A stretch of 64,000 nt of DNA, taken from contig NZ_QTSU01000001.1 of the NCBI RefSeq assembly GCF_003382365.1, positions 248,001-312,000 on the forward strand, in the 5' to 3' direction. The stretch comes from Lysobacter silvisoli (GTDB taxonomy: Bacteria; Pseudomonadota; Gammaproteobacteria; Xanthomonadales; Xanthomonadaceae). Position 1 is the first letter of the stretch. Every line of letters starts with the position of its first letter. Below, one piece after another: positions 3,219 through 61,891 of the stretch. A model generated the notes under the pieces. The model was given only the letters and a program-made list of their open reading frames with translations. It was not told the origin of the DNA and did no database searches. The position numbers were made by a program, and so were the translations under genes.

Positions 3219-3779
3219 TAGGAGCGGCGTAAGCCGCGACCGCGAATCCTCACCTGCGACGAGAGCCACGCGCGCCCCGTGTAGGAGCTGCGCAAGCTGC
3301 GACCGCGAATCCGCACCTACGTCGTAACCCTCGTTCCCTCTGCTTCCGCCTTTGCCTGTCTTCCCCCTTTGGAAAAGGGGGATTGAGGGGGATTTGCTTT
3401 GGCTGTTGCTCTTGCTTAGGAGCAACAGCAACAGCTTCCGTCCGCAAGCGGCCGGGTCACTTTCTTTTGATAAGCGTCAAAAGAAAGTAACCAAAGAAAA
3501 GCGCTTCCCCAGAGCTCCCGTGCGAGAGCGGAGTGGGCGCGGGGATTTTTCGATGGCACATCCTGTGCCAGCGAAAAACGGCGCACATCCTGTGCGCCGC
3601 CCTTCGGGTCTTCTATTGGCGCTGCGAGTTCGGTGTCCGAGCGAGGGTCAAGAGCATTCGCGCTTTGCGCTCACCCCCTCACCCTAGCCCTCTCCCGCTA
3701 GCGGGAGAGGGGATACATCAGATTCCGCTTGCTGCTTTTAGCCCCTCTCCCGCTTGCGGGAGAGGGGTTGGGGTGAGGG
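3219..3779 (-). repeat. Composite hairpin repeat cassette, copy A
   Basis: One of six copies of an ordered set of non-coding modules; in this copy the order reads on the minus strand. From 3779 downward it holds: two CCCTCTCCCGC hairpins forming a larger inverted repeat (3674-3779), a conserved GAATGCTCTTGA-type block, a GGCGCAC hairpin (3580-3598), a TGGCACA hairpin (3554-3570), a very AT-rich 38-base palindrome (3455-3492), an AACAGCAACAGCTTCCG block, a CCCCTTTTCC/AAAGGGGG hairpin near 3365-3385, and two GTAG-headed REP sequences (3219-3246 and 3281-3309). The short open frames inside, which encode phrases such as FDKRQKKVTKEKR, recur because the repeat recurs and are not credible genes. 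The bases 3058-3218 between the redoxin gene and the cassette show no other feature. Confidence 0.9.
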
Positions 3780-3856
3780 CAGCGCGATACGGGAAGCAAA
3801 ACGAACAAGGCCGGCTTGCGCCGGCCTTGCTCCAACCGCATGCGGCTGCGCGGAAC

Positions 3857-5842
3857 TCAGCCCTTGCCGGCCGCCGGCTTGGCCGCGACGGCGACCTTTC
3901 CATCGGCTTGCCAGCCGCAGGTCTTGCCTTCGTTCTGCTGCTTCAGCCAGGTCTGCAGCGGCGCGAAGTATTCCAGCACCGCCGAGGCGTCCATCTTCTC
4001 GCCGCCGGTCAGCTCCTTCAGCGTCTGCTGCCAGGGCTGGCTCTGGCCCTTGCTCAGCATGGCCTGGAAGCGCTTGCCGGCTTCCTTGTTGCCGTAGAAG
4101 CTGCACTCGTACAGCGGGCTCTTGTAGCCGGCCGCGTCGCACAGCGACTTGTAGAACTGGAACTGCAGCACGTGCGAGAGGAAGTAGCGGGTGTACGGGG
4201 TGTTGCCCGGCACGTGGTACTTCGCGCCCGGGTCGAAGAATTCCTCGCCGCGCGCGCTGGCCGGAGCAACGCCCTGGTACTTGGCCTTGAGCTGCCACCA
4301 GGCCTTGTTGTAGTCGGCCGGCTTGATCGAGCCGTCGAACACGCCCCAGCGCCAGCGGTCGATCATCAGGCCGAACGGCAGGAACGAAACCTTGGCCAGG
4401 GCCATGCGCATCTGCGCGTTGATCAGCGCTTCCTGGCTCTGCTGCTGGTCGCCGACCAGGCCGATCGACTGCAGGTATTTGGGCGTCATCGCCAGCACGA
4501 TGGTGTCGCCGATGGCCTCGTGGAAGCCGTCGTGCGCGCCGCCCTGGAACAGCGGCGGCTGCTGGTTGTAGGCCATGTAGTAATAGACATGGCCCAGCTC
4601 GTGGTAGATGGTGGTGAAGTCTTCCTCGTTGGGCTTGATGCACATCTTGGTGCGCACGTCGCCGGCCATGTTCATGTCCCAGGCGCTGGCGTGGCAGACC
4701 ACGTCGCGGTCGCGCGGCTTCACGAACTGGGTCTTGCTCCAGTAGCTCTCCGGCAGCTTGGGCATGCCCAGCGAGACGTAGAAGTCCTGCGCGCGCTCGG
4801 TCATCAGCTTGGCCGTGGCGGTGGCCGCGTCGACTTCCAGCTGGGCCTGCTGCTGCGGCTCCTGCGAATCCGGGTTCTTGGCCATCTGCGCGTCCAGCTG
4901 CTGCTGGTACTGCGCGGCCAGGGCGCTGGTGATGTCCAGGCTGCCGGCGTCCTTGTACGGCTGCAGGATGTCCCAGAGGTTGCCCCAATCCTGCTGCCAC
5001 ATGTTGCCCATCAGGTGCGCGGGCAGCATGTTGCCGGCGACGTGGCCCTTGTCGGTGCCGTACTTGGCGTCGAGCTGGGTGCGCGCATAGCAGTGGAGCT
5101 GTTCGTACAGCGGCTTGACCTGGCCCCACAGGCGGTCGGTCTCGGCGGCGATCTCGGCCGGGCTCATGTCGTAGCCCGAGCGCCACATCTCGCCGGTGTC
5201 GGCGTAGCCCATGTCGCGGGCGCCTTCGTTGACCAGTTCGACGAAACGCACGTAGTCCTTGCGCATCGGCTGGGCGATGCTGTGCCAGCCCTGCCAGGCG
5301 TCGAGCTGGGCGTCGTAGTCGCGGCTGTTGCGCAGCACTTCTTCCAGGTCGCCGAGCTGGCGGCAGTTCTGCTCGCCTTCGCCCTTGCAGTAGCGGCCGG
5401 CGCCGTACATGCCGTCCATCTTGACCGCGATCTTGGTCAGCTCGGCCAGCTTGGCCGGGTCCTTGGGCGCGGGCATCGCGGTCATCAGCTTCAGCAGCTG
5501 GATCGAACGCGCGGTTTGCGGCGACATCTGCTGGCCTTCGAAGCGCTTGGACTGCTCGATCCAGCTGTTGAGCTGCTGCAGCCAGCGCTCGTTGTTCTTG
5601 GCCGCGATCAGCGCGCTGTCGTCGTTGATGTAGGTCGCCGACAGCCACTGCGCCGAGCTCATCTCGGGGTACAGGGCCTTGTATTCGGCGTTGACGCGGG
5701 CGATGAACTCGTCGGCGGTCTCGCCCTTGGGCGCGGTGGTCGCTACCGGGCCGGTGACGGGGGTCGGTTCTTTCTTGCAACCGGCCACGCCGATGACGGC
5801 GGCGGCGATGCTGAGCGCGAGCAGGGCGCGTAAGGGCTTCAT
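3857..5842 (-). CDS. Peptidase M2 family (angiotensin-converting-enzyme-like) dipeptidyl carboxypeptidase lipoprotein
   Basis: A 661-residue zinc metallopeptidase that removes C-terminal dipeptides from peptides, expected to be anchored in the cell envelope. The start at 5842 (MKPLRALLALSIA) gives a lipoprotein signal with lipobox VAGC ending at Cys22. A longer in-frame start at 6007 would bury this signal and is rejected. The zinc site is H414-E-L-G-H418, with Glu442 in GFHEAIGD as the third ligand, exactly as in the M2 family. Length and domain extent match single-domain bacterial ACE homologues known from Xanthomonas. A ribosome site (GGAGAG) lies about ten bases upstream. The gene stands alone, with repeat cassette A downstream and a long gene-poor region upstream. 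Confidence 0.93.
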   Translation of the reverse strand: MKPLRALLALSIAAAVIGVAGCKKEPTPVTGPVATTAPKGETADEFIARVNAEYKALYPEMSSAQWLSATYINDDSALIAAKNNERWLQQLNSWIEQSKRFEGQQMSPQTARSIQLLKLMTAMPAPKDPAKLAELTKIAVKMDGMYGAGRYCKGEGEQNCRQLGDLEEVLRNSRDYDAQLDAWQGWHSIAQPMRKDYVRFVELVNEGARDMGYADTGEMWRSGYDMSPAEIAAETDRLWGQVKPLYEQLHCYARTQLDAKYGTDKGHVAGNMLPAHLMGNMWQQDWGNLWDILQPYKDAGSLDITSALAAQYQQQLDAQMAKNPDSQEPQQQAQLEVDAATATAKLMTERAQDFYVSLGMPKLPESYWSKTQFVKPRDRDVVCHASAWDMNMAGDVRTKMCIKPNEEDFTTIYHELGHVYYYMAYNQQPPLFQGGAHDGFHEAIGDTIVLAMTPKYLQSIGLVGDQQQSQEALINAQMRMALAKVSFLPFGLMIDRWRWGVFDGSIKPADYNKAWWQLKAKYQGVAPASARGEEFFDPGAKYHVPGNTPYTRYFLSHVLQFQFYKSLCDAAGYKSPLYECSFYGNKEAGKRFQAMLSKGQSQPWQQTLKELTGGEKMDASAVLEYFAPLQTWLKQQNEGKTCGWQADGKVAVAAKPAAGKG

Positions 5843-6931
5843 GAGGCGGTTCTCTCCAGGACGAATGCACCGCGCCGGGGCGCGGGGTGCACCGAGGCTA
5901 GAGGCCGATCCGGCGGGGCGCAAGGCCGCAAAGTCGCGGGTGGGGCAGGCTTGGCCGGGTCTGGCGGCAGGCGTTGCGGGTCGGGTCGTGGCGCGGTTTT
6001 CGCGCAATGGGCGCGGGCGAGTGGGGCCGCATAACGCAAAGGGTGACGTAGGGCGGCAACGAGCATGCCAATGATATTTATCTATCGTTCATGTTTGGGT
6101 GAATTATGGGTGAGGCCTATGCCGGCATCGCCGCGATTCATGCGATCTAATGCCGCTAAGTGACGATAAATTCGGATAAAACTCGCTTAGTTCTCCAAAT
6201 GCGCAGACCCCTTGCCGCGGCTGAACGCATCCATTACAACCGGACTCAGTCATAAAAGAATCATTTGATTTGTGACCCAAAAGCGGGAAAGGTGACGCTC
6301 CGGGACAGGTTCGCGGTGGTCGCCCGGTACGCCACGGAAGGTCTGATTCCGCGCAGGCGCACAGCGCCACGCAGGTCGGGCGGTCCGGCGCCGGGGAGGG
6401 CGCCAGGACACGCGGCTACGGTCACCGTGCAAGGGGTTTAGGGAGTGGTGTGAATGCTCGTCGGCGTGCGCCTGGACGGCCGCGTCGAGCCATGGATGCT
6501 CGTCCGCGGTCACGGCCGCCGGGCGCGAGGTAGGAGCTGGACCGGTCGCCGGCGGCCAGGGAGGCCGACGGGACGTCAGCGGCGGTGGTGATGGGGGTTG
6601 GAGTTATCGGACTCGGCGGCTACGTCTGGACGACGGCAGCCGCAGCGACGGATCGCACGCCGGGGCACGGGCCGCAAGGCCGGGTGCCGGGCGCGGGAAC
6701 CCATCGGATCGACGTGCCAGGGACGGTATCGAATTCGGGGCTGTAGCGAGCCCCAATGCGCGCGTCCAGCGGACGGGCGTGGCGGCCGCGGGGCCGCCGG
6801 GCGGAGGCGCTTGCGGGCGCACCGCGCGGCGGCGTCGCGAACGCCGAACTTTATTCTGTGCTTATGGGTGCAGGCCGGCCGGGTCCGTCTGCCCAGCGTG
6901 GGCTGCGCCGCGAGTTCGCGGCTTGGGTCTG
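5843..6931. other. Gene-poor region with an AT-rich island
   Basis: I see no convincing gene here. Open frames of 60-260 codons exist, but their composition is Arg/Pro/Ala-rich noise typical of GC-rich DNA. The interval 6062-6260 is clearly richer in A and T than the surroundings, with a run such as CAATGATATTTATCTATCG near 6068. It could contain the promoter of the ACE-like gene or the remnant of an acquired segment. The part from about 6260 to 6931 is GC-rich and holds no recognisable RNA or protein feature. Confidence 0.5.
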
Positions 6932-7680
6932 CCCTCACCCCAACCCCTCTCCCGCAAGCGGGAGAGGGGCTAAAGCAGCAAGCGGCGTCGGATGCATCCC
7001 CTCTCCCGCTTGCGGGAGAGGGTTGGGGTGAGGGGATGAGCGCAGCGAATGCTCTTGATCTTTGCCCGGCCCCCGAACTCGCAGCACCAATAGAAGACCC
7101 AAAGGGCGGCGCACAGGACGTGCGCCGTTTTCCGCTCGGGCAGGAGGCCCGATCGGAAAATCCCCGCGCCAACTCCGATCTCGCAAGGGAGCTCTGGGGC
7201 AGCGTTTTTCTTTGGTTACTTTCTTTTGACGCTTATCAAAAGAAAGTTACCCGGCCGCTTGCGGACGGAAGCTGTTGCTGTTGCTCCTCAAGCAAGAGCC
7301 AAAGCAAATCCCCCTCAATCCCCCTTTTCCAAAGGGGGAAGACAAGCAGGGCGGAAGCAGGGGAAACGAAGGTTGCGGCGTAGGTGTGGATTCGCGGTCG
7401 CAGCTTGCGCAGCTCCTACGGGGGCGATCGCGGCGTTCGTCATAGTGGTGGATTTGTGGTCGCGGCTCACGCCGCTCCTACCCCAAGGCGCTAGGGCAGG
7501 TCCCACGTCGTCGTTGCGGGTTCGCGGTCGCAGCTTGCGCAGCTCCTACAGGGGTGGGCGCGGCGTTCGTCGTAGCTGTGGGACGCGGTCGCGGCTTACG
7601 CCGCTCCTACCCCAAGGCGCTAGAGCAGGTCCCACGTCGTAGTTGCGGGGTCGCGGTCGCACATGGCGCCGTTCCTACGG
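6932..7680 (+). repeat. Composite hairpin repeat cassette, copy B (longest)
   Basis: This copy reads on the plus strand, opposite to copy A. It starts with the double CCCTCTCCCGC hairpin inverted repeat (6932-7035). It continues with the GGCGCAC hairpin (7108-7126), a CGGGC/GCCCG hairpin (7137-7151) in the place where copies A, C and F have a TGGCACA hairpin, the AT-rich palindrome (7214-7251), the CTGTTGCTGTTGC block, and the CCCTTTTCC/AAAGGG hairpin (near 7321-7340). It ends with at least five REP units of the GTAG type, alternating between the GCGGCGTGAGCCGC and GCTGCGCAAGCTGC forms (about 7392-7680). The extra REP units make it the longest of the six copies. Confidence 0.9.
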
Positions 7681-7697
7681 GGGGCGGCGCAGGTCGG

Positions 7698-8174
7698 TTA
7701 GGGCAGGCGCAGGCTGCGCGCGGCGGCGTCGGCCAGGCCGCGGTCGTGCAGCCATTGCCAGGCGCTGTCGGCGTCGGATTCGACGTAGGCGCGGGCCGAG
7801 CCCAGGCGGAAGGTGTAGCCCCAGGCGTCCATGTCCGCGTACACGCGTTCGCGGCCCACGCCGGGCAGGGCATCGCCGAGCAGGCATTGCAGCACGCACA
7901 CCGCGTCCTCTTCCTCGACCGAATCGGTGGCGTCGGTGTGCACCGCCGCGCGGCGCTCGTCGGGCAATACGATCAGGTGCGCGGCCTCGTGCAGCAGCGA
8001 ATGCAGCGGCGTGTCGCCGCGCGCATACACCGTGCTGCCGATCAGTCCGGCCTCGCTGTCGCCCCAGTAACTGCCGGGAATCGGCTCGCCGTCGGCCACG
8101 CGCGCCAGCGCCAGCCCGTAGCGGGCGAGCAGCGCCGCGACCGCGGCATGATCGATGTCGGCCAGGGTGAGCAT
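7698..8174 (-). CDS. HEAAH-motif protein, putative zinc metallopeptidase-like (unknown function)
   Basis: A 158-residue protein without signal peptide or membrane segment. It contains H62-E63-A-A-H66 in a helix (LLHEAAHLIVLP), the HExxH signature of zinc-dependent proteases, and an acidic run EEEDAVCV at about 87-94 that could supply a third ligand. The C-terminal part is rich in Trp and Tyr. The family looks like a conserved hypothetical of this bacterial group, and I cannot name a substrate. The leader upstream of the ATG is pyrimidine-rich on the coding strand and closely resembles the leader of rlmJ at 55.7 kb. Catalysis is not proven by the motif alone. Confidence 0.7.
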   Translation of the reverse strand: MLTLADIDHAAVAALLARYGLALARVADGEPIPGSYWGDSEAGLIGSTVYARGDTPLHSLLHEAAHLIVLPDERRAAVHTDATDSVEEEDAVCVLQCLLGDALPGVGRERVYADMDAWGYTFRLGSARAYVESDADSAWQWLHDRGLADAAARSLRLP

Positions 8175-8187
8175 GGGAGGAGCTGGA

Positions 8188-8262
8188 GATGGAAGATAGG
8201 AAATAGGAGTTAGCGAGAGCGGCTTTCGCTAGCTCCTAACTCCTGACCGCTAACTCCTGAGC
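8188..8262. repeat. Short AGGAGTTAG-type inverted and direct repeats
   Basis: Between the HEAAH gene and minE lies a run of related octamers (ATAGGAAATAGGAGTTAG, then GCTAGCTCCTAACTCCTG and CTAACTCCTGA). The first unit pairs with the later ones in inverted orientation around GCGAGAGCGGCTTTCGC, so it can form a hairpin of more than fifteen base pairs. Related words (TAGGAGCTAGGAAATAGGAG) occur at 55.7 kb. Confidence 0.6.
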
Positions 8263-8270
8263 CCCACGCC

Positions 8271-8531
8271 TCAAGCCGGACTGGGGCGGTCCGGCAGGGC
8301 CACGGAAATATCGAGCACGTCGTGCTCGCCTTCCTTGACCACGTCCACCTTGACCGCTTCCACGTCGACGTTGACGTACTTGCGGATCACCTCGAGCAGC
8401 TCGCGCTGCAGCATCGGCAGGTACTCCGGGCCGCCGCGGCCGGCGCGCTCGTGGGCGACGATGATGCGCAGACGGTCCTTGGCCACCGCCGCGGTCTGCT
8501 TCTTGGCCAGCAGGAAGTCGAACAGTCCCAT
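8271..8531 (-). CDS. minE: Cell division topological specificity factor MinE
   Basis: An 86-residue protein that stimulates the MinD ATPase and restricts MinCD to the cell poles, so that the FtsZ ring forms at midcell. The N-terminal amphipathic segment is [11 protein letters not shown], followed by the MinD-contact region with [13 protein letters not shown]-like sequence (here [14 protein letters not shown], residues 16-29). The C-terminal dimerisation domain ends in [10 protein letters not shown]. Length is normal for the family. The ATG follows the minD stop after two bases, as expected for the last gene of minCDE. Confidence 0.97.
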
Positions 8532-8533
8532 GC

Positions 8534-9343
8534 TCAGCCTCCGAAGATCTTGCTGAAGAAGCCCTTCTTTTCCACCTGCGTGAAGCGCATCGGGCGGGTG
8601 TCGCCGAGCAGCCGCGCGACCGCGTCGTCGTAGGCCTGGGCGGCGTCGGACTCGGTTTCCAGGATCACCGGCTCGCCCTTGTTGGAGGCGTTGAGCACAT
8701 CGCTGGATTCGGGGATCACGCCCACGGTCTTCAGGCCCAGGATTTCCTCGACGTCGCCGATGCTGAGCATCTCGCCGGTTTCCACGCGCTTGGGGCTGTA
8801 GCGGGTCAGCAGCAGATGTTCCTTGACGCGCTCGCCGTTCTCGGCGCGGCGGGTCTTGGACGCCAGCAGGCCCAGGATGCGGTCGGAGTCGCGCACCGAG
8901 GACACTTCCGGGTTCACCACCACGATCGCCTGGTCGGCGAAGTACATGGCCAGGAACGCGCCCTTCTCGATGCCGGCCGGGGAATCGCACACGATGTAGT
9001 CGAAGCCGTCGGCGGCCAGGTCTTCGAGCACCTTCTGCACGCCTTCCTTGGTCAGCGCGTCCTTGTCGCGGGTCTGCGAGGCAGCCAGCACGTACAGGTT
9101 TTCGAAGCGCTTGTCCTTGATCAGCGACTGCTTGAGCGTGGCTTCGCCGTTGACGACGTTGACGAAGTCGTACACCACACGGCGTTCGCAACCCATGATC
9201 AGGTCCAGGTTGCGCAAGCCGACGTCGAAGTCGATGACGGCGACCTTGTGGCCGCGGCGTGCGAGCCCGCAGGCGACGCTGGCGCTGGTGGTGGTCTTGC
9301 CGACGCCGCCCTTGCCCGAGGTGACTACGATGATTTCGGCCAA
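8534..9343 (-). CDS. minD: Septum site-determining ATPase MinD
   Basis: A 269-residue membrane-associated ATPase that recruits MinC and oscillates with MinE. The deviant Walker A motif is [11 protein letters not shown] (residues 10-20), the switch region contains [11 protein letters not shown], and the C-terminus ends with the amphipathic membrane helix [11 protein letters not shown]. The start is a TTG codon at 9343. It is supported by a strong AGGAGG about eight bases upstream and by the normal N-terminus [14 protein letters not shown]. Twenty-six bases separate it from minC. Confidence 0.97.
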
Positions 9344-9369
9344 GTTGTGTTCCTCCTAAAGAGCGGCCC

Positions 9370-10128
9370 TCACTCCAGGGCCGCGATCATGATCTGTTCG
9401 TCTTCGAGCCAGACCTGCACGGCCTTGCCGCGCAGGGTCTTGGGGATGTCTTCCAGCACTTTGTAGTGGCCGGCGATGGCCACGAGTTCGGCATGGAACT
9501 CGCGGCAGAAAATGCGCGCCTGGGCATTGCCCTGGGCACCGGCCAGCGCGCGTCCGCGCAGCGGGCCGTAGATGTGCACCGAGCCGTCGGCGATCACCTC
9601 GGCGCCGGCGCCGACCGCGGTCAGCACGGTCAGGTCGCGGTTGTCGGCGTAGATCTGCTGGCCCGAGCGCACCGGCGCGGACTGGATCAGGCCGGGCGAG
9701 GCGGTTTTGGCGGGCGCGGCGGCCGCGGCCGGTGCGGGCGCTTCCCGGCGCGGCGCGGCGGCGGGCGCCGGCGGCGCTTCGTCGTCGCGTTCGTACTGGG
9801 CGCGGAACTTGGCCAGCAGGGGCAGGCCCAGGGCCTCGGCCAGGCGTTCGGTCTCGCTGCTGCCGTAGGCCAGCGCCACCGGCAGCACGCCGGCTTCGCG
9901 CAGGCCGTCGATCAGGGCCTGGGCGACGTTGGCGTCGGGCGTGCGGCTGAGGCCGCCGAAGTCGATGACCACCGCGGCGCGCGCGAACAGCTTGGGCGCG
10001 CGCTGCACGCGGCCGCGCATTTCCTCGACCAGACGCGGCACGTCCAGGCTGCGCACGCGCAGGTTGGCGATGCCGACCTGGCCGATCTTGAGTTCGCCCG
10101 CCTGTTCGTAATCCACCGCCACGCTCAC
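9370..10128 (-). CDS. minC: Septum site-determining protein MinC
   Basis: A 252-residue FtsZ-assembly inhibitor. The N-terminal domain (about 1-105) is followed by an Ala/Pro-rich linker (about 120-155). The C-terminal beta-helix domain contains [17 protein letters not shown] and [16 protein letters not shown], the surfaces for dimerisation and MinD contact. I chose the GTG at 10128 because it overlaps the stop of the upstream acetyltransferase as GTGA and gives the expected N-terminus ([16 protein letters not shown]). The longer frame upstream would only read through the acetyltransferase in another frame. It is translationally coupled to the acetyltransferase. Confidence 0.93.
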
Positions 10129-10739: not shown

Positions 10740-11002
10740 TCCGGGCTCCAATATTCGCAAACCGGCCACGAAATCGGTGGCCGGCATCGCCGATTATCGC
10801 ATGGACGCCCCCGCCGGGCGACCGGCCAAAAACCGCCGCGCTGGACCGCTCGGGGGCGCAGGCCGCGGCGTTGCGCCGGGTCCGCCGGTGCGGGGATCGG
10901 GCAAGACCAGGACGGATTTGTCCAGGTTCGGCAAAGCGCCCGGCCAGGGGCCATGACTTTCGGACGGCTCCGGTGGCCCGGTGCAGCCGTTAGCATGCGT
11001 TC

Positions 11003-16775: not shown

Positions 16776-16819
16776 TGTGCCCGTTTCCCGCGCAGTTGCC
16801 CCAAGCGCCCGCCTTGGGC

Positions 16820-17375
16820 TAGGAGCGGCGTCGGCCGCGACCGCGATCTTCATCCACCACGAAAGCCACGCCCACCCCTGTAGGAGCTGCGCAAGCTGCG
16901 ACCGCGAACCCGCAACTACGACGAATGCTGCGGTCTGTGTGGGATGCGCTTTCTGTAGGAGCGGCGTGAGACGCGATCCGCTCCGAACTCGCGAAGGTGT
17001 TTGGGTGTGTTGGTCGAAGCAACAGCAACAGCTTCCGTCCGCAAGCGGCCGGGTCACTTTCTTTTGATAAGCGTCAAAAGAAAGTAACCAAAGAAAAACG
17101 CTTCCCCAGAGCTTCCCTGCGAGATCGGAGCGTGCGCCGGGATTTTTCGATGGCACATCCCTGTGCCAGCGGAAAACGGCGCACCTCCTGTGCGCCGCCC
17201 TACGGGTCTACGATTCGGACTGCGAGTTCGATGCCCGAGCGAGGATCAAGAGCATTCGCGCGCTGCGCTCATCCCCTCACCCTAGCCCTCTCCCGCAGGC
17301 GGGAGAGGGAACACATCCGACGCCGCCGCTCGTGCTTTTAGCCCCTCTCCCGCTTGCGGGAGAGGGGTTGGGGTG
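16820..17375 (-). repeat. Composite hairpin repeat cassette, copy C
   Basis: Same module order as copy A, read on the minus strand. Present are the double CCCTCTCCCGC hairpin inverted repeat (about 17275-17375), the GGCGCAC hairpin (17178-17196), the TGGCACA hairpin (17151-17168), the AT-rich palindrome (17052-17089), the AACAGCAACAGCTTCCG block, and three REP units (about 16820-16847, 16880-16907, 16956-16980). The CCCTTTTCC/AAAGGG hairpin module is missing and is replaced by a short CACACCCAAACAC-type segment, also found in copy F. Confidence 0.9.
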
Positions 17376-17423
17376 GCGCGCGGGGCCGCAAGTCGCGGCG
17401 CGCGTGCGCAGCGATGGCGCGCA

Positions 17424-21450: not shown

Positions 21451-21499
21451 GCGCGAAGGATTTGTGCGCCGATCGCGCCGCAACTTGTTGTATCGCGTG

Positions 21500-21913
21500 C
21501 CCTCACCCCAACCCCTCTCCCGTAAACGGGAGAGGGGCTAAAGCAGCAAGCGGTGTCGGATGTATCCCCTCTCCCGCTTGCGGGAGAGGGCTAGGGTGAG
21601 GGGATGAGCGCAGCGAATGCTCTTGATCCCCGCTCGGGTACCGAACTAGCCACGCACATAGAAGACCCAGAGGGCGGCGCACAGGACGTGCACCGTTTTC
21701 CGCTCGGGCAGGAGGCCCGATCGGAAAATCCCCGCGCACGCAACGCTCTCGCACGGGAGCTCTGGGGAAGCGTTTTTCTTTGGTAACTTTCTTTTGACGC
21801 TTATCAAAAGAAAGTTACCCGGCCGCTTGCGGACGGAAGCTGTTGCTGTTGCTTGAAGCTAAGAGCAAATCCCCCTCAATCCCCCCATTTTTTTTAAAGG
21901 GGGAAGACCAGCA
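21500..21913 (+). repeat. Composite hairpin repeat cassette, copy D (shortest)
   Basis: Plus-strand copy. The first hairpin stem reads CCCGT-AA-ACGGG instead of CCCGC-AA-GCGGG, a paired change. Then come the GGCGCAC hairpin (about 21676-21694, one mismatch), the CGGGC/GCCCG hairpin (21705-21719), the AT-rich palindrome (21782-21819, here with a perfect GGTAAC/GTTACC base) and a T-rich version of the CCCTTTTCC/AAAGGG hairpin. REP units are absent; a half-element GGGTTCCGGCTTTCG of another repeat family follows at about 21921-21950. Confidence 0.9.
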
Positions 21914-21977
21914 GGAACGAAATGGGTTCCGGCTTTCGTCGGAATGACGGAACCAGGATTCGGATCGGGGAGGGAAC

Positions 21978-24029: not shown

Positions 24030-24030
24030 C

Positions 24031-43331: not shown

Positions 43332-43419
43332 GGGCGGTGATTGGGTGGGGATGTCGAATCGTACGCGCAATAGGGCTTGGCTGGAGTGGGCTTTGGGTGA
43401 CGACGATGGTGGTGGGCGG

Positions 43420-43912
43420 CCCTCACCCCAACCCCTCTCCCGTAAACGGGAGAGGGGCTAAAGCAAAGCGGCGTCGGATCTGTCCCCTCTCCCGCTTGCG
43501 GGAGAGGGTTAGGGTGAGGGGATGAGCGCAGCGAATGCTCTTGATCCTCGCTCGGGCACCGAACTCGCAGTGCCAATGGAAGACCCGTAGGGCGGCGCAC
43601 AGGACGTGCGCCGTTTTCCGCTCGGGCAGGAGGCCCGATCGGAAAATCCCCGCGCAAACTCCGATCTCGCACGGGAGCTCTGTCCAAGGACAGCGTTTTT
43701 CTTTGGTTACTTTCTTTTGACGCTTATCAAAAGAAAGTGACCCGGCCGCTTGCGGACGGAAGCTGTTGCTGTTGCTTGAAGGCAAGAGCAAATCCCCCTC
43801 AATCCCCCTTTTTCAAAGGGGGAAGACAGGCAAAGGGCGGAAGCAGGAGGAGCGAGGGGTTGCGACGTAGGTGCGGATTCGCGGTCGCAGCTTGCGCAGC
43901 TCCTACAGGGGG
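43420..43912 (+). repeat. Composite hairpin repeat cassette, copy E
   Basis: Plus-strand copy. The first hairpin has the CCCGT-AA-ACGGG version, as in copy D. Then follow the second hairpin, the GGCGCAC hairpin (43593-43611), the CGGGC/GCCCG hairpin (43623-43637), an extra small hairpin GTCCAAGGAC near 43682-43691, the AT-rich palindrome (43705-43742), the CTGTTGCTGTTGC block, the CCCTTTTTC/AAAGGG hairpin, and one REP unit at the right end (about 43874-43909). Confidence 0.9.
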
Positions 43913-43929
43913 CTGGCGGGGCTGTGTGG

Positions 43930-54842: not shown

Positions 54843-54849
54843 GCGCGGC

Positions 54850-55713: not shown

Positions 55714-55765
55714 TGAGCAGGGAATAGAGGGTAGGAGCTAGGAAATAGGAGGTGGTGGCGGGGCG
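55714..55765. repeat. AATAGGAG-type short repeats upstream of rlmJ
   Basis: The words AATAGAGGGTAGGAG, CTAGGAAATAGGAG and GGTGG lie directly in front of the rlmJ start codon on the opposite strand. On the coding strand this gives a CTCCTATTTCCTAGCTCC leader. The same kind of leader precedes the HEAAH gene at 8175-8210. Confidence 0.55.
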
Positions 55766-55828
55766 CCATGGAGCCATTATGCTTGTCCGGCCGCCTTCCG
55801 ATTCCTCCTTGCCCACATTCCGGCCTTT

Positions 55829-56509
55829 ATGCCCCGCATCCTGCTGGTCGACGACGAGCCCGCGATCGCCGCCACCGTGCTCTACGCCCTGCGCGCCGAG
55901 GGCTTCGAAGCCGAGCACTGCCTGACCGGCGGCGAGGCCCTGCGCGAGGCCCGGCGCCAGCCCTACGATCTGGCGGTGCTGGACGTGGGCCTGCCTGACA
56001 TCGGCGGTTTCGCCCTGTGCCGCGAGCTGCGCCGCGAGCGCGACCTGCCGGTGATCTTCCTGACCGCGCACGACGCCGAGGCCGAGCGCATCCTGGGCCT
56101 GGAGATCGGCGCCGACGACTACGTGACCAAGCCGTTCTCGCCGCGCGAACTGGTCGCGCGCATACGCGTGGTGCTGCGCCGCGGCGCGCGCGCGCCGGAA
56201 TCGGCCGCCGCCGGCGCGGGCCCGGCCTTCGTCCACGACAGCGAAGGCAAGCGCATCCGCTACCGCGGCCAGGCGCTGGACCTGACCCGTTACGAATACG
56301 GCCTGCTGGCCGCGCTGCTGCAGCGCCCCGGCGCGGTGCTGTCGCGCGCGCAGCTCATGGACCGCGTCTGGGGCGACGCGCTGGACAGCGGCGACCGCAC
56401 CGTCGACACCCACATCAAGACCCTGCGCGCCAAGCTGCGCGAAGTCGACGGGCAGGCCGATCCGATCCGCACCCATCGCGGCCTGGGCTACTCGCTGGAC
56501 GCGGGCTGA
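55829..56509 (+). CDS. creB: Response regulator CreB (OmpR/PhoB type)
   Basis: A 226-residue regulator. The receiver has the acidic pair Asp8-Asp9 and phospho-acceptor Asp52 (YDLAVLDVGLPDIGGFALC), with the switch Thr and Lys in FLTAHD and YVTKPFSP. The C-terminal winged helix contains LTRYEYGLLAALLQRPGAVL and DRTVDTHIKTLRAKLRE. The gene is followed by creC after nine bases. CreB in related bacteria controls beta-lactamase genes and cell-envelope functions (BlrA in Aeromonas). Confidence 0.93.
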   Translation: MPRILLVDDEPAIAATVLYALRAEGFEAEHCLTGGEALREARRQPYDLAVLDVGLPDIGGFALCRELRRERDLPVIFLTAHDAEAERILGLEIGADDYVTKPFSPRELVARIRVVLRRGARAPESAAAGAGPAFVHDSEGKRIRYRGQALDLTRYEYGLLAALLQRPGAVLSRAQLMDRVWGDALDSGDRTVDTHIKTLRAKLREVDGQADPIRTHRGLGYSLDAG

Positions 56510-56518
56510 GCCGGCGGC

Positions 56519-57967
56519 ATGAAGATCGGGCTGCGCATCTTCCTGGGCTATTTCGTGATCGTGGCGCTGGCCGCGCTGCTGCTGACCCGGGTGTTCCTGG
56601 CCGAGGTCAAGCCGGGCGTGCGCCAGGCGATGGAAGACACCTTGGTGGATTCGGCCAACGTGCTGGCCGAGCTCGCCACCGACGATTTCCTGGCCGGGCG
56701 CATCAACGACGGCGCCTTCGCCCGCCGCGTGCGCGAACTGCGCGGGCGCGATTTCGGCGCCGAGATCTGGGGCTTCGGCAAGCGCGCGTCCAACTACCGG
56801 CTGTACATCACCGACGCGCGCGGCACCGTGGTGTTCGACAGCGACGGCAAGGATCTGGGCCGCGACTACTCGCGCTGGAACGACGTCTACCTGACCTTGC
56901 GCGGCCGCTACGGCGCGCGCTCGACGCTGGAAGACGCGAACGACCCCAGTTCCAGCGTGATGCACGTGGCCGCGCCGATCCGCGACGGCACGGGCCGCAT
57001 CGTCGGCTCGCTGACCGTGGCCAAGCCCAATCGCACCATCGCGCCCTTCATCGAGCGCAGCCAGCGCGTGGTGCTGCGTTGGGGCGGCGTGCTGATGGGC
57101 GCGGCGCTGCTGATCGGCCTGATCGCGGCCTGGTGGCTGTCGCGCCAGCTCGGCCGCCTGCGCCGCTACGCGCACGCCGTCACCGCCGGCCGCCGCGCCG
57201 AACTGCCCGAGGCCGCCGGCGAGTTCGGCGAACTCGGCCGCGCGCTGGAAACCATGCGCACGCGGCTGGAAGGCAAGCAGTACGTGGAGCACTACGTGCA
57301 CACCCTGACCCACGAGATGAAGAGCCCGCTGGCGGCGATCCGCGGCAGCGCCGAGCTGCTGGAAACCCGCCCCGGCGAAACGCCGATGGCCGAGGAGGAC
57401 CGCGCGCGCTTCGCCGCCAGCATCCGCCGCCAGAGCGAGCGCCTGGCGCAGATGATCGACAAGCTGCTGGCGCTGGCCGCGGTGGAGCATCGCCAGCGCC
57501 TGGACAAACCCGAGCGCGTGGATCTGGCCGAGCTCGCGCGCGAAGCCGCCGAGCAGTGCGCGCCGCGCCTGGCCCAGGGCGGACTGAGCCTGGACCTGGC
57601 GCTGGCCAGCGACCTGCCGACGCTGGACGGCGACCCCTTCCTGCTGCGCCAGGCGCTGGTCAACCTGATCGACAACGCCGCCGATTTCTCGCCCGCGCAC
57701 GGCCGCATCGAACTGCGCCTGTACCGCGACGGCGAAGCCCAGCGCGTGGACGTGTCCGACCGCGGCACCGGCGTGCCCGACTACGCGCTGCCGCGCGTGT
57801 TCGAGCGCTTCTATTCGCTGTCGCGCCCGGCCGGCGGCAGCCGCAGCAGCGGCCTGGGCCTGTGCTTCGTGGCGGAGGTCGCGGCCCTGCACGGCGGCCA
57901 TGCCGACCTGAGCAACCGCGAAGGCGGCGGCGCCGTCGCCAGCCTGATCCTGGCGCGCGGGTTCTGA
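56519..57967 (+). CDS. creC: Sensor histidine kinase CreC
   Basis: A 482-residue membrane kinase. Two membrane segments (about residues 7-27 and 185-205) flank a periplasmic sensor domain containing LYITDARGTVVFDSDGKDLG and RDYSRWNDVYLTLRG, the sequence typical of CreC. A HAMP region (206-250) precedes the HisKA domain with His265 in TLTHEMKSPLAAIRGSAELL. The catalytic ATPase domain shows LVNLIDNAADFSPAHG and SDRGTGVPDYALPRVFERF, with SSGLGLCFV. Partner of CreB directly upstream. Confidence 0.95.
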   Translation: MKIGLRIFLGYFVIVALAALLLTRVFLAEVKPGVRQAMEDTLVDSANVLAELATDDFLAGRINDGAFARRVRELRGRDFGAEIWGFGKRASNYRLYITDARGTVVFDSDGKDLGRDYSRWNDVYLTLRGRYGARSTLEDANDPSSSVMHVAAPIRDGTGRIVGSLTVAKPNRTIAPFIERSQRVVLRWGGVLMGAALLIGLIAAWWLSRQLGRLRRYAHAVTAGRRAELPEAAGEFGELGRALETMRTRLEGKQYVEHYVHTLTHEMKSPLAAIRGSAELLETRPGETPMAEEDRARFAASIRRQSERLAQMIDKLLALAAVEHRQRLDKPERVDLAELAREAAEQCAPRLAQGGLSLDLALASDLPTLDGDPFLLRQALVNLIDNAADFSPAHGRIELRLYRDGEAQRVDVSDRGTGVPDYALPRVFERFYSLSRPAGGSRSSGLGLCFVAEVAALHGGHADLSNREGGGAVASLILARGF

Positions 57968-58005
57968 CCGGCGGAGCTTTCGGCGCGATCAAATCGGTTC
58001 CTATC

Positions 58006-58112
58006 CGTCATTCCGGCGAAAGCCGGAACCCATTTTGCCGTTGCTTTGGACGCCGGTTCGTCGCAATCGCGGAGAGAAATCAAGATGGGTTCCGGCTTTC
58101 GCCGGAATGACG
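58006..58112. repeat. Inverted pair of CGTCATTCCGGC-type repeats between creC and creD
   Basis: CGTCATTCCGGCGAAAGCCG with GAACCCATTTTG and its inverse GGGTTCCGGCTTTCGCCG with GAATGACG. Arms are about 30 bases, separated by about 45. The element is the same family as at 35228-35317, and the loop bases GAAA/TTTC differ from GTAA/TTAC there. Confidence 0.9.
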
Positions 58113-58230
58113 GTGTAGAGAAGAGGTGCAAAGGGACATACCTTTCCACTTCACCGACGCTTCACCCTTCCTCCATCCTCCCCACGCAGCCTCCGCCCAA
58201 GCTTTCCCCAACTCACGACGGGAGAGCGAC

Positions 58231-59604
58231 ATGCGACTGTGGTTGAAAATCATCCTGGTGCTGGGCATGACCCTGGCCATCCTGGTGCCGCTGCTGATGA
58301 TCCGCGGCGTCATCGACGACCGCCAAGCCCACCGGCAGCAGGCGGTGGCGTCGATCGCGTCCAGCTATGCCGGCGCGCAGTCGTTCTCCGGCCCGGTGCT
58401 GGTGGTGCCCTATACCGACACCGTCACCACGCAGGAAAAGGACGCGCAGGGCCGCGTCGAGACCAAGATCAGCGAGGAGCCCGGCCAGTGGGTCTACTTC
58501 CCGCAGAGCCTGGACGTGCGCGGCCCGCTCAAGCCCAGCACGCGCCGCCTGGGCCTGCACGAAGTGCGGGTGTACGAATGGCAGGGCACGGCGCAGGCCG
58601 ATTTCCGCGTCGAGATCCCGAACGAAGCCCTGGCCGCGGGTCGTAGCCGCGCGATCGGTCAGCCCTGGCTGAGCTACGGCTTCGCCGACGTGCGCGGCCT
58701 GCTGTCCACGCCGACCCTGCGCATCGACGGCGCGGCGGTGGCGGTGGAGGAGGGCATGGGCAGCCGCAGCGGCGGCGGCGTGCATGCGCGGCTGGCCGCG
58801 CCCGTCGCCGGCCAGGCGTTGAGCCTGAAGACGCGCCTGGACTTCAGCTTGGGCGGCACCGAATCGCTGGCGCTGGTGCCGCTGGGCAAGAGTAACCGCT
58901 TCGCCCTGCAATCGAGCTGGCCGCACCCGCGCTTCGGCGGCAGCTTCCTGCCGCGCACCCGCGATATCGGCGCCCAGGGCTTCAACGCGCAGTGGGATGT
59001 GTCCTCGCTGGCGACCAGCGCGCAGCGTCAGTTCCGCGAAGGCAAGTCGGTGGTCGAGGCGCCCGAAGGCGCAGCCTTCATCGACGCCGCCGCGATGCCG
59101 GCCGCCGGCATCGACGCGGTCTCGGTGGCCCTGGTCGATCCGGTCAACGTCTACAGCCAGGCCGACCGCGCCAGCAAGTACGGCCTGCTGTTCGTGCTGC
59201 TGACCTTCGTCGGCTTCTTCATCTTCGAACTGATCAAGCAGCTGCCGATCCACCCGATCCAGTACGGCCTGGTCGGCCTGGCGCTGGCGATCTTCTTCCT
59301 GCTGCTGGTCAGCCTGAGCGAGCACATCGCTTTCGTCTGGGCCTACCTGATCGCCAGTCTGGCCTGCATCGGCCTGCTCGGCTTCTACCTCAGCGCGGTG
59401 TTGCGTAGCGTCGGCCGCGGCCTGGGCTTCGCCGCCATGCTCGCCACCCTGTACGCGGCGCTGTACGGGCTGCTGGTGTCGGAAGACAACGCCCTGGTGC
59501 TGGGCGCCGGCCTGCTGTTCCTGATCCTGGCGGCGGTGATGGTCATCACCCGCAAGGTCGACTGGTATCAACTGGCCAGTGCGCGTCCGCAAGCGCGCGC
59601 CTGA
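58231..59604 (+). CDS. creD: Inner membrane protein CreD
   Basis: A 457-residue protein with one N-terminal membrane segment, a large periplasmic domain (about 35-320), and five or six C-terminal membrane segments (ASKYGLLFVLLTFVGFFIFE and HPIQYGLVGLALAIFFLLLV). Conserved CreD phrases are SGPVLVVPYTD and RFGGSFLPRTRDI. It is the main target gene of CreBC and contributes to envelope integrity. The start at 58231 has GGGAGAG at good distance. A repeat element stands between creC and creD, so their co-transcription is uncertain. Confidence 0.95.
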   Translation: MRLWLKIILVLGMTLAILVPLLMIRGVIDDRQAHRQQAVASIASSYAGAQSFSGPVLVVPYTDTVTTQEKDAQGRVETKISEEPGQWVYFPQSLDVRGPLKPSTRRLGLHEVRVYEWQGTAQADFRVEIPNEALAAGRSRAIGQPWLSYGFADVRGLLSTPTLRIDGAAVAVEEGMGSRSGGGVHARLAAPVAGQALSLKTRLDFSLGGTESLALVPLGKSNRFALQSSWPHPRFGGSFLPRTRDIGAQGFNAQWDVSSLATSAQRQFREGKSVVEAPEGAAFIDAAAMPAAGIDAVSVALVDPVNVYSQADRASKYGLLFVLLTFVGFFIFELIKQLPIHPIQYGLVGLALAIFFLLLVSLSEHIAFVWAYLIASLACIGLLGFYLSAVLRSVGRGLGFAAMLATLYAALYGLLVSEDNALVLGAGLLFLILAAVMVITRKVDWYQLASARPQARA

Positions 59605-59615
59605 GCCTGCCCCAC

Positions 59616-59647
59616 GCCGCCGCGGTTGCGACCGCGGCGGTTTTTTT
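59616..59647 (+). terminator. Intrinsic terminator after creD
   Basis: GCCGCCGCGGT and ACCGCGGCGGT-type arms with a short loop, followed by seven T residues. Confidence 0.92.
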
Positions 59648-59717
59648 GTGCGCCGCCGATCGGCGCGGCGGCACGCTTCGTCCGAGCGCCGCACCTGCCG
59701 CGCCGGGCTGGCCTAAG

Positions 59718-60335
59718 ATGACGCTCATGAACGCCTCCGCGATCGAAGTCCGCTGCTACTCGGGCGCCGCCATCGCGCCCTACCTGGACGACCTGGCGCG
59801 CCTGCGCATCGAGGTCTTCCGCGACTGGCCCTATCTCTACGACGGCGACGCCGCGTACGAGGCGCAGTACCTGGCCACGTATCTGCGCTCCTGGCGCAGC
59901 GTGGCGGTGCTGGCCTTCGACGGCGCGCAGGTGGTCGGCGCCTCCACCGGGCTGCCGCTGGCCGACGAGTCCGATGCCTTTCTGGCGCCGTTCGCCGACA
60001 GCGGCCTGGATCCGGAGCGGGTGTTCTACTGCGGCGAGTCGGTGCTGCTGCCGGCCTACCGCGGCCGTGGCCTGGGCCACCGCTTCTTCGACGAACGCCA
60101 TGCGCATGCGCGCGCGCTGCAGGGCTATCACTGGACCGCGTTCTGTGCGGTCGAGCGGGACGCCAAGGATCCGCGGCGGCCGCCGTTCCAGCGTTCCAAC
60201 GAGGACTTCTGGCGCAAGCGCGGCTATCAGCCGCGGCCGGAGCTGCGCGCCAGCCTGCCCTGGCGCGAAGTCGGGCGCGGCGAGGCCGAACACACGCTGG
60301 GCTTCTGGCTGCGTCCGCTGGAGCGGCAGCGATGA
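59718..60335 (+). CDS. GNAT-family acetyltransferase coupled to a nitrilase-like gene
   Basis: A 205-residue acetyltransferase. Visible are RIEVFRDWPYLYDGDAAYEA in the N-terminal helix, the acetyl-CoA loop in LLPAYRGRGLGHRFFDERHA, and FQRSNEDFWRKRGYQPRPEL with the C-terminal strand. Related proteins occur fused to carbon-nitrogen hydrolases in other bacteria; here the two are separate but overlap by ATGA. The start may also be ATG 59727. This pairing suggests action on one substrate or pathway. Confidence 0.82.
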   Translation: MTLMNASAIEVRCYSGAAIAPYLDDLARLRIEVFRDWPYLYDGDAAYEAQYLATYLRSWRSVAVLAFDGAQVVGASTGLPLADESDAFLAPFADSGLDPERVFYCGESVLLPAYRGRGLGHRFFDERHAHARALQGYHWTAFCAVERDAKDPRRPPFQRSNEDFWRKRGYQPRPELRASLPWREVGRGEAEHTLGFWLRPLERQR

Positions 60336-61228
60336 AGGTGGCGGTGGCCAAATACACCATCGACGCGCCGCGCAGCTACGCCGAGTTCGCCGACAAGCAG
60401 GCGCGCTGGCTGGGCGAGGCGCGCGCCGCCGGCGCGGAGCTGGCGGTGCTGCCGGAGTACTTGGCGCTGGAGCTGGGCGCGACCTTCGGCGCGGCCACCC
60501 AGGGCGACCTGCACGCCTCGCTGATCGCGATCCAGCAGTACCATGGCGCCTGGCTGGAACTGTACGGCCTGCTCGCGCGCGAGCTGCGCATGCACGTGGT
60601 CGCCGGCAGTTTCCTGATCGCCGCCGGCAACGGCCGCTACCGCAACCGCAGCTATGCCTTCGCGCCCGACGGCGGGGTGCTGTGGCAGGACAAGCTGCAG
60701 CTGACCGGCTTCGAAAAGCGCGCCGCGGTGATCGAGCCCGGCGACGCGCTGCGGGTGTTCGCGTTGGGCGCGGTGCGCGCGGGCATCGCGATCTGTTACG
60801 ACCTAGAGTTTCCGCTGCCGGTGCGCGCGCAATGCGAGGCCGGCGCGCGCCTGCTGGTCGCCCCCAGCTGCACCGACACCGAAGCCGGCGCGACCCGCGT
60901 GCGCGTGGGCGGGCTGGCGCGCGCGTTGGAGAACCGCTGTTTCGTCGCCCAGGCCGTGACCGCCGGCGACGCGGCCTGGAGCCCGGCCTTGGACACCAAC
61001 ACCGGCGAAGCGGCGATCTACGCGCCCATGGACGTGGGCCTGCCCGCCGATGGCGTGCTGGCGCAGACGCGCGGCAGGCAGCGTTGGGCGGTGGCGGATC
61101 TGAACTTCGCCGCGTTGGACGCGAGTCGCGAACAGGCGCAGGTAGCTAACGACCGCGATTGGGCCGGGCAGGGGGCGCCTGCCATCCGGCGCGCTGCGTT
61201 GACGGAGTGGAGCGCGGATCTGCCGTGA
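60332..61228 (+). CDS. Carbon-nitrogen hydrolase (nitrilase superfamily)
   Basis: A 298-residue amidase of the nitrilase superfamily. The catalytic triad is Glu42 (LAVLPEYLALE), Lys121 (LWQDKLQLTGFEK), and Cys155 (GIAICYDLEFPLP). These positions and the length fit the group. The start ATG overlaps the stop of the preceding GNAT gene. Substrates in the family are amides, nitriles or carbamoyl compounds; the GNAT/CN-hydrolase set has no assigned reaction that I can state. Confidence 0.9.
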   Translation: MKVAVAKYTIDAPRSYAEFADKQARWLGEARAAGAELAVLPEYLALELGATFGAATQGDLHASLIAIQQYHGAWLELYGLLARELRMHVVAGSFLIAAGNGRYRNRSYAFAPDGGVLWQDKLQLTGFEKRAAVIEPGDALRVFALGAVRAGIAICYDLEFPLPVRAQCEAGARLLVAPSCTDTEAGATRVRVGGLARALENRCFVAQAVTAGDAAWSPALDTNTGEAAIYAPMDVGLPADGVLAQTRGRQRWAVADLNFAALDASREQAQVANDRDWAGQGAPAIRRAALTEWSADLP

Positions 61229-61257
61229 ATTGCAGCGCGAGCTCGTGGCTCTGCGTG

Positions 61258-61891
61258 CCCTCACCCCAACCCGCACCCCGGCCCGCCCGCATAGCGGTCG
61301 GGCGTTCAGTGCAGCGCGAGCCAATGGCTCGCAAGCGCTGCCCTTCACCCCGCAAGCGGGAGAGGGGCTAAAGCAGCAAGTAACATCGAATGCATCCCCT
61401 CTCCCGCTTGCGGGAGAGGGTTAGGGTGAGGGGGTGAGCGCAAAGCGCGAATGCTCTTGATCTTCGCTCGGGCACCGAACTCGCAGCCCCAACAGCAGAC
61501 CCGGAGGGCGGCGCACAGGAGGTGCGCCGTTTTTCGCTGGCACAGGGATGTGCCATCGAAAAATCCCCGCGCACGCTCCGCTCTCGCAGGGGAAGCTCTG
61601 GCGAAGCGCTTTTCTTTGGTCACTTTCTTTTGACGCTTATCAAAAGAAAGTGACCCGGCCGCTTGCGGACGGAAGCTGTTGCTGTTGCTTAAACCAGCAC
61701 ACCCAAACACCTGCGCGAGCTCGGAGCTGATCGCGGCTCACGCCGCTCCTACAGAAAGCAGATCACACGCGGACCGAGGCCCTCGCAGTAGTTGCGGATT
61801 CGCGGTCGCAGCTTGCGCAGCTCCTACAGAGGTGGGCGCGGCGTTCGTCGTAGTTGCGAGTTCGCGGTCGCGGCTCACGCCGCTCCTACCC
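61258..61891 (+). repeat. Composite hairpin repeat cassette, copy F
   Basis: Plus-strand copy. The first hairpin is disturbed by an insertion of about 80 bases, so only its right half (CCCGCAAGCGGGAG) remains near 61350. The second hairpin is intact. Then follow the GGCGCAC hairpin (61509-61528), the TGGCACA hairpin (61538-61555, as in A and C), the AT-rich palindrome with a perfect GGTCAC/GTGACC base (61618-61655), the CTGTTGCTGTTGC block, a CACCCAAACAC segment as in copy C, and three REP units (about 61733-61755, 61795-61830 and 61865-61891). Confidence 0.88.

Follow-up and report, generated by a model that had tools for sequence, protein, structure and literature searches.

A dispersed repeat of Lysobacter silvisoli, probably related to TwoAYGGAY RNA, with a predicted triplex pseudoknot and joined REP-type repeats

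TwoAYGGAY, filed in Rfam as RF01731 (clan CL00106), is an orphan RNA family with two adjacent hairpins whose loops carry GGA. The original paper rates it as probably an RNA and probably not cis-regulatory (PMC2864571), and in another paper it is matched to the CsrA motif and proposed as a CsrA binder (PMC4333381). No published test of this proposed binding was found in the open-licence literature. Small RNAs of the CsrB/RsmZ type and RsmU of Xanthomonas likewise have GGA motifs in predicted hairpins, and the RsmU paper reports that none of the sequenced Xanthomonas genomes has a homologue of the CsrB type (PMC7694677). Here we analyse a window of 64,000 nucleotides from Lysobacter silvisoli (G000:C1:248001-312000, in a genome of 4.54 Mb in 7 contigs), in which an original prediction, made from the sequence alone, had noted a multi-hairpin cassette in six copies. 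Comparison of sequences indicates that the cassette is larger than earlier described: it is a dispersed, probable relative of TwoAYGGAY with a predicted triplex pseudoknot, which is here fused to REP-type repeats (repetitive extragenic palindromes).

Like TwoAYGGAY, the core of the cassette has two adjacent GGA-loop hairpins, and the family model recognises homologous copies from congeners and from other genera; unlike it, the window copies are below the reach of the model, have a predicted 3′ pseudoknot beyond the model and belong to a dispersed repeat of about 100 copies joined to other repeats. RNAs of the CsrB/RsmZ type and RsmU come from one expressed locus or a few, whereas the cassette exists in many dispersed copies, each of which has two sites and no known promoter. 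Telomerase RNA and the SAM-II and preQ1-II riboswitches contain H-type pseudoknots with a major-groove U·A-U triplex. The predicted knot resembles these pseudoknots in that the pyrimidines of loop 1 would lie alongside the purine strand of stem 2 in parallel orientation and that stem 1 would be formed from the apical loop, but it differs from them in its long stem 2, its up to eight contiguous predicted triples and its place in a dispersed bacterial repeat. REP/RAYT and REPIN elements are dispersed intergenic palindromes; the cassette shares with them this kind of dispersal, the REPs in its right-hand modules and the inverted pairs seen in congeners, whereas its core has no GTAG head and its multi-hairpin structure is found in distant lineages. 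ENEs (elements for nuclear expression) are triple-helix RNA stability elements of plant and fungal transposable elements. They are comparable in that a triple helix is predicted in the RNA of a repeated element, but the fold and the kingdom are different and no poly(A) tail pairing is involved.

From the left, the composite consists of a CCCTCTCCC hairpin pair, a core of about 190 nt and, rightmost, REPs. The left module has two CCCTCTCCCGC hairpins within a longer inverted repeat. The core comprises, in order, hairpin 3 (HP3; GGCGCAC-AGGAN-GTGCGCC), hairpin 4 (HP4), in which a GGA loop is enclosed by TTTT(T/C)CG...CG(A/G)AAAA, and an AT-rich palindrome, which is followed by a AAATCCCCCTCAATCCCCC...GGGGGA module in copies A, B, D and E and otherwise by a different tail. 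The right-end REPs are of the GTAGGAGC type, and none was found in copy D. The palindrome lies in a module of 52 nt predicted to form the pseudoknot, in which S2 is the palindrome stem, X the strand upstream of a pyrimidine tract and X′ the apical loop of S2. The six segments with a common module order in both orientations that the original prediction had claimed are all found, four on the plus strand and two (A and C) on the minus strand:

3213..3780, minus: copy A, whole composite (left pair, core, CCCCCT module, two REPs)
3580..3598, minus: HP3 of A, GGA-loop hairpin 1
3546..3578, minus: HP4 of A, GGA-loop hairpin 2
3455..3506, minus: predicted triplex pseudoknot of A (X AAGCG, third strand, S2, X′ CGCTT)
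6930..7690, plus: copy B, whole composite
6932..7034, no strand assigned: left pair of CCCTCTCCCGC hairpins of B, which stands apart from the core in congeners
7108..7126, plus: HP3 of B
7128..7160, plus: HP4 of B
7200..7251, plus: predicted triplex pseudoknot of B
7306..7339, plus: AAATCCCCCTCAATCCCCC...GGGGGA module of B
7393..7610, plus: array of four GTAGGAGC-type REPs of B (read as reverse complement)
16818..17376, minus: copy C, whole composite
17178..17196, minus: HP3 of C
17143..17176, minus: HP4 of C
17052..17103, minus: predicted triplex pseudoknot of C
21498..21912, plus: copy D, composite, no REP found
21676..21694, plus: HP3 of D, with one C-A mismatch
21696..21728, plus: HP4 of D
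21768..21819, plus: predicted triplex pseudoknot of D
43418..43916, plus: copy E, whole composite
43594..43612, plus: HP3 of E
43614..43646, plus: HP4 of E
43691..43742, plus: predicted triplex pseudoknot of E
61256..61894, plus: copy F, whole composite, first module interrupted by an insertion (about 61258-61345, by eye)
61510..61528, plus: HP3 of F
61530..61563, plus: HP4 of F
61604..61655, plus: predicted triplex pseudoknot of F

The cassette is not confined to the window. With up to three mismatches, the AT palindrome has 109 matches in the genome (67 forward, 42 reverse) as against 0 for a reversed control pattern, far more than chance would give, and 90 among the 100 matches listed are free of mismatches. 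In all, 103 distinct copies were extracted, 90 of them with an identical 30-nt palindrome. The alignment of 100 copies, with the three at contig ends left out, has a conserved block of about 360 nt whose left edge is sharp at CCCTCACCCC, and mean identity over 1500 sampled copy pairs is 88%. Copies are found within about 520 bases of contig ends, at both ends of C1 and in C4 and C5 (L062:125, L085:1521, L118:125, L119:1458); thus the repeat breaks the contigs, and the true copy number may be higher.

The relation to TwoAYGGAY becomes visible outside this genome. A scan of the window against Rfam at the gathering score gave no match, and since the window copies are under the RF01731 threshold (43 bits) they are not filed as members of the family. 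Of 20 genomes of the genus, 12 have RF01731 matches at E ≤ 1, for example 48 in G001 and 37 in G016, and 3 have matches above the cut-off; within the class it matches 30 of 369 genomes, 15 of them above the cut-off, as against 0 of 14 controls. Two copies from Psychromonas score 63.5 and 59.0 bits and one from Luteimonas 42.9 bits, just under the cut-off. At G016:C1:4557833-4558050, a BLAST match of copy B coincides with an RF01731 match of 35.1 bits, which is below threshold. An outer stem around both hairpins is clear in folds of Methylobacter-type copies and not clear in the fold of window copy B. On this basis we lean towards regarding the core as a divergent relative of TwoAYGGAY, the model of which would stop short of the 3′ knot domain, and the window copies resemble that kind of RNA and probably share its descent. 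A search of titles and abstract openings in the open-licence literature found no description of an element with the 3′ knot.

A scan of contigs for GGATG followed after a gap of 54-84 by TTTGGTTACTTTCTTTTG, which by construction secures one GGATG and the 5′ arm of the palindrome and neither the second GGA hairpin nor the complementarity of the stems, gave 97 stretches, where about 0.2 would be expected by chance at equal base frequencies; 24 of the 97 loci were inspected in sequence. The 97 stretches come from Lysobacter, Luteimonas, Methylobacter, Methylomonas, Psychromonas, Selenomonadaceae and Vogesella, from metagenome-assembled genomes (MAGs) that carry the labels Spirochaetes, Bacteroidetes, Omnitrophota and Ignavibacteria, and from some others; all cases outside Pseudomonadota are MAGs, the labels of which may be wrong. 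The exact palindrome occurs in 3 of 369 genomes of the class, own genome included, and its spread is therefore patchy. Elements also occur as REPIN-like inverted pairs a few hundred bases apart, in L125, L126, L146 and L147 (G016, G001) and further in L321, L322, L325, L343 and L345. Runs of hexamers such as GTTGCC, GTTGCT or GTTGCA, in varying number, precede the core in L140, L143, L144 and L160 (G012, G013, G015).

The two hairpins keep their loops while their stems change. GGA is present in both hairpin loops in 96 of the 100 aligned copies. The original prediction had pointed to paired changes in three stems and named the absence of covariation among all aligned copies as the outcome that would speak against it; two of its three pairs covary and the third does so weakly at best. 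At the first hairpin the pair is CG in 65 copies, TA in 30 and TG in 2 (n = 99; Watson-Crick 95 vs 55 permuted), and at the flanks of what was called the third hairpin, which is the base of HP4, it is TA in 61, CG in 28, TG in 5 and CA in 3 (n = 98; Watson-Crick 89 vs 54 permuted). At the base of the AT palindrome (TG 53, TA 21, TT 14, GG 6, CG 3 and GT, AT and CT 1 each) Watson-Crick pairs number 25 vs 21 permuted (p 0.03, relatedness ignored), or 79 vs 77 with G-T counted (p 0.22), and across species this base is paired in 45 of 47 elements, mostly as U-A and U-G. Copy B, with T-T at the palindrome base, and copy C, with C-A at the HP4 base, had been omitted from the examples given for those respective positions. 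The inner pairs of HP4 exist in own genome as two or three block alleles (GC 61, CG 32, AT 5 etc.); because they change as blocks, few independent events are represented within own genome.

Comparison across species is more telling. In 47 of 66 assembled Lysobacteraceae elements (most copies of Lysobacter sp. yr284 and some others being left out), 95.6% of the cells of 35 pairs are paired, as against 84.9% after shuffling and 39-54% with the partner slid, and changes on both sides are seen in 18 of the 35 pairs, amounting to 185 cells vs 49 in shuffles. These stem changes strongly support the earlier claim that selection acts on the structure of a single strand. Between lineages the stems are wholly different and the loop letters are kept: among 82 distinct hairpins, from a table biased in that 67 of its 77 elements come from the GGATG/TTTGGTTACTTTCTTTTG scan loci and the detector required a stem and a loop GGA, CA(N)GGA is found in 75 and CA(N)GGATG in 69, and the arms pair at 98% with their own partner and at 52% when swapped between lineages. 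The own genome has one csrA match (C1:1640279-1640434, 92 bits), so that two features expected of a system with a CsrA/RsmA-sequestering RNA, paired GGA hairpin loops and csrA, are present in the same genome.

As to the palindrome, X is complementary to X′ in most lineages even as the letters differ: AAGCG/CGCTT in own genome, TCGCC/GGCGA in Methylobacter, GCAG/CTGC in Selenomonadales, GTGCC/GGCAC in Psychromonas, GACCC/GGGTC in Luteimonas and CTTGAT/ATCAAG in a Bacteroidetes MAG. The longest complementary run averages 4.65 vs 3.22 when partners are swapped, the highest of 500 swaps being 3.49. Besides, the pyrimidine tract between X and S2 matches the purine strand of S2 in the parallel sense at every purine position, in fixed register, in 120 of 126 distinct modules (40 from own genome, 57 from the scan loci, 29 others) and in the antiparallel sense in 0; the module finder required a pyrimidine-rich tract, not a match to S2, and the commonest module type is partly a matter of construction or descent, which the variants are not. 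Tract and stem vary in concert: TTTTCTTT goes with AAAAGAAA in 86 modules, TTCTCTTT with AAGAGAAA in 11 (G011, G012, G013, G015, Luteimonas), TTTCTTTT with AAAGAAAA in 6 (Lysobacter sp. M2-1 and one Selenomonadales MAG) and CTTTCTTT with GAAAGAAA in 1, and in 15 further modules a C or T faces a C that closes the purine run. Position 3 in 11 modules, and position 4 in 6 modules, has gone from T-A to C-G on both sides; none is half-changed at these two positions. There are only 12 module types, and the observed match was reached by 16 of 5000 shuffles. The other Psychromonas copy, in L169, has CTCTCTTT vs TAGAGAAA. Apical-loop complementarity and a concerted parallel match of loop 1, both expected of an H-type triplex pseudoknot, are found at the level of sequence, and the palindrome is thus predicted to be an H-type pseudoknot with a pyrimidine triple helix. 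Such a knot, recurring in several lineages, would extend the TwoAYGGAY family and offers a reason why the AT palindrome is strictly conserved alongside a species-specific loop.

The knot was also sought at loci chosen by RF01731 alone, namely the best match from each of the 30 class genomes. By the strict scan, 13 of the 30 loci have it downstream; none has it upstream or on the other strand, and 0 of 150 approximate dinucleotide shuffles contain it. When S2 was sought without the tract requirement, a stem was found in 20 of 32 loci (the 30 together with the two Psychromonas copies).

Comparison brings out the copies with their order of modules, the covariation of the stems, the complementarity between apical loop and upstream strand, a third strand that matches in parallel, and empty sites; on these we base the proposal, with a probability of roughly 0.55, that the core encodes a structured RNA with CsrA-type hairpins and a 3′ triplex knot and that the amplified composite titrates CsrA/RsmA where it is transcribed. 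As RNA, the core would present two CsrA/RsmA-like GGA-loop hairpins and then the 3′ H-type pseudoknot, in which the apical loop of S2 would pair with X, and the pyrimidine tract would occupy the major groove of S2 as a parallel third strand. Joined to the CCCTCTCCC hairpin pair and RAYT-type REPs, the core would have moved as part of a unit and been amplified to about 100 intergenic copies; we infer that copies transcribed from the GGA strand would fold, bind and thereby titrate CsrA/RsmA, and the triplex knot may protect the RNA or its 3′ side. Titration of CsrA is the best-supported function, yet an unproven proposal. It suggests that dispersed repeats can carry many paired CsrA-type sites and would matter for the control of CsrA/RsmA activity in Lysobacteraceae. 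Going further, and only tentatively, one may imagine a wide-ranging, SINE-like (short interspersed nuclear element-like) bacterial RNA, which multiplies as a dispersed repeat, keeps its fold as its sequence is replaced species by species and recruits neighbouring repeats, as in this genome, so as to form a genome-wide CsrA titration system of about 200 sites; TwoAYGGAY in its catalogued form would be only the 5′ half of this RNA. Of all this the original prediction had the structure, the composite as a unit and its non-autonomy, apart from one weak case among its three covarying pairs, and it had passed over the separate histories of the modules, the GGA loops, the loop-upstream pairing, the parallel third strand and the link to TwoAYGGAY.

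A number of observations weigh against CsrA titration by a knotted RNA. Copy B matches neither RF01731 nor any RNA family of this kind at E ≤ 10, and in own genome RF01731 has 0 matches at E ≤ 1 (83 candidates scored). An excess of G-U over A-C mismatches on the GGA strand favours RNA across lineages (25 vs 7 in 93 distinct hairpins, equal scoring), but this count is uncorrected for relatedness, and in the stems of own genome the two mismatches are about equally common, so that copies may decay neutrally here. In the 47 Lysobacteraceae elements further pair types show no excess (36 vs 35.2 in shuffles). By eye, terminators separate copies A and D from the gene next to them, and thus read-through is not assured. 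As to the knot, the X-loop run is 3 or shorter in 15 of 105 distinct pairs, and apical loops are small (of 126 modules, 80 have 6 nt and 19 have 4 nt), so that opening of the apical pairs of S2 may be needed, or X-X′ may alternate with S2. Moreover, a C+·G-C triple requires protonation. The strict knot was not found in 17 of the 30 RF01731 loci, of which several (L324, L329, L334, L338) resemble degenerate knots by eye; in the tract of L324 a G faces a T-A pair in the purine strand, and G in a third strand is a known read-through of a T-A interruption. The antiparallel version of the strict scan was positive in 10 of the 30 loci, because tracts such as TTTCTTT are symmetric, and among the 20 stems in free register the parallel sense wins 6, loses 1 and ties 13 with the antiparallel.

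The alternative that survives best, unlikely as we consider it, is that the structure acts as single-stranded DNA: the hairpins and a mirror-repeat tract capable of forming H-DNA would be recognised by a single-strand transposase such as a Y1/RAYT enzyme, and the likeness to CsrA sites would be a coincidence. The equality of G-U and A-C within own genome suits it, as do the dispersal of the copies and their empty sites. In stretches of 80 kb orthologous to the window, which has 6 cores, there are 3 cores in G015, 2 each in G011 and G012, 0 in G008 and 4 in G009, and orthologous sites are mostly without a core. Site B is plainly empty in G015, G011 and G012, with a gap of 39-41 bp instead of 862, and so is site D, with 2-67 bp instead of 501-529; at site E, none of the five relatives compared was found to have a core in the corresponding position. 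Site C is the sole core shared at the orthologous place with G015, G011 and G012, where it carries those species' own sequence type, and G009 also has a core between matched flanks of the site C region. At site F there are left-pair-like hairpins without a core in G011, G012 and G015 and REPs alone in G009. A comparison with empty orthologous sites had been suggested in the original prediction, and its outcome supports the view that the element is non-autonomous.

Replication-coupled insertion could also give the bias in orientation: the GGA strand lies preferentially on the strand of negative local GC skew (p 0.0019 for 103 copies, p 0.0002 for 72 convergent sites). Among the 16 places listed for G015 the orientations are, by half, 11 minus and 1 plus vs 4 plus and 0 minus (Fisher p 0.0027, hand count); the places listed for G005 are about 3:1 plus in both halves (hand count), which goes against a simple orientation rule, and a test for runs of orientation was not significant (p 0.08). 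Elements in inverted pairs, seen in congeners and elsewhere, are reminiscent of REPINs, and the right-end REPs match those around the only Y1_Tnp match in own genome (C5:81067-81327; L061:1501-1761). On either side of this RAYT-type match stands a pair of the GTAGGAGCGGCG REPs with which the cassettes end. GTAG is the head motif of REP/RAYT elements; palindromes with this head flanking the RAYT gene are represented by the right-hand REPs only, and no GTAG head was found on the core in the 100-copy alignment or in the cross-species elements, which tells against recognition of the core by such a transposase. So do the presence of the element in distant genomes, the retention of loop letters while stems change, the prevalence of G-U over A-C across lineages and the lack of any target-site duplication seen by eye at the orthologous sites compared.

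Placement suggests a second alternative, that the copies are bidirectional terminators or 3′-end stabilisers accumulating between convergent genes. With genes called by codon usage, 72 of the 103 copies lie between convergent genes, 0 between divergent genes, 0 inside genes, and 4 have no called neighbour; thus 72 of the 99 copies with both neighbours called are convergent, whereas 10 of 64 gene pairs in the window are convergent, 43 tandem and 11 divergent (unweighted by spacer length). Copies between tandem genes have the GGA strand opposite the genes in 18 cases and along them in 9. Any insertion that avoids promoters would, however, give the same placement; no T run follows S2 in the six window copies, separate hairpin-plus-T terminators, by eye, precede copies A and D, and neither GGA loops nor a parallel third strand is necessary for termination. 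We regard this explanation as quite improbable.

No better are the chances that X-X′ pairing and S2 are the alternative folds of a switch instead of forming a pseudoknot together. In 21 of 126 modules the apical loop has 3-4 nt, which leaves no linker, and the minimum-energy fold of copy B gives X other partners, although the program cannot form pseudoknots; the covariation of the parallel third strand is explained only if S2 is formed and the tract lies along it, as in the H-type pseudoknot that we prefer.

The modules of the composite have different histories. The left pair is wholly or partly missing in at least three copies (L081, L087, L089; by eye, among the 12 rows of lowest occupancy), and congeners give repeated matches to the core (query 142-356 or 142-412) that lack it, as well as matches to the left pair by itself, for example in G007, G009 and G006. 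REPs, too, occur separately from the core. Since the left pair and the REPs are found apart from the core, the composite appears to have been joined from separate repeats, and in own genome the joined composite has multiplied as a unit. BLAST with copy B gave 40 scored places (the query included), of which 22 cover at least 475 of 501 bases. Independent REP insertions, which the original prediction had held to be a poor explanation of the module order, are ruled out as its cause by these near-full-length places and the shared block of about 360 nt; unrelated modules joined by chance, which it had named as the other outcome that would count against it, do not describe an order amplified as a unit here, even if left pair and REPs do occur separately. 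That the whole is an ordinary mosaic of unrelated REP-like repeats, as the separate occurrence of left pair and REPs and the coreless left-pair-like hairpins at site F might suggest, is very improbable given that those 22 places keep the order and that the block, with its sharp left edge, is common to 100 aligned copies.

Rfam matches of the left pair to eukaryotic microRNA families were all under the gathering score and were dismissed as chance. A viral contig (L273:10252-10286) carries a Methylobacter-type knot with no GGA-loop hairpins upstream. Copy D is apparently followed by another dispersed repeat (21905-21950 of the window), which we take to be of the TTCCGGCTTTCGTCGGAATGACGG type, and intergenic sites may gather several repeat families.

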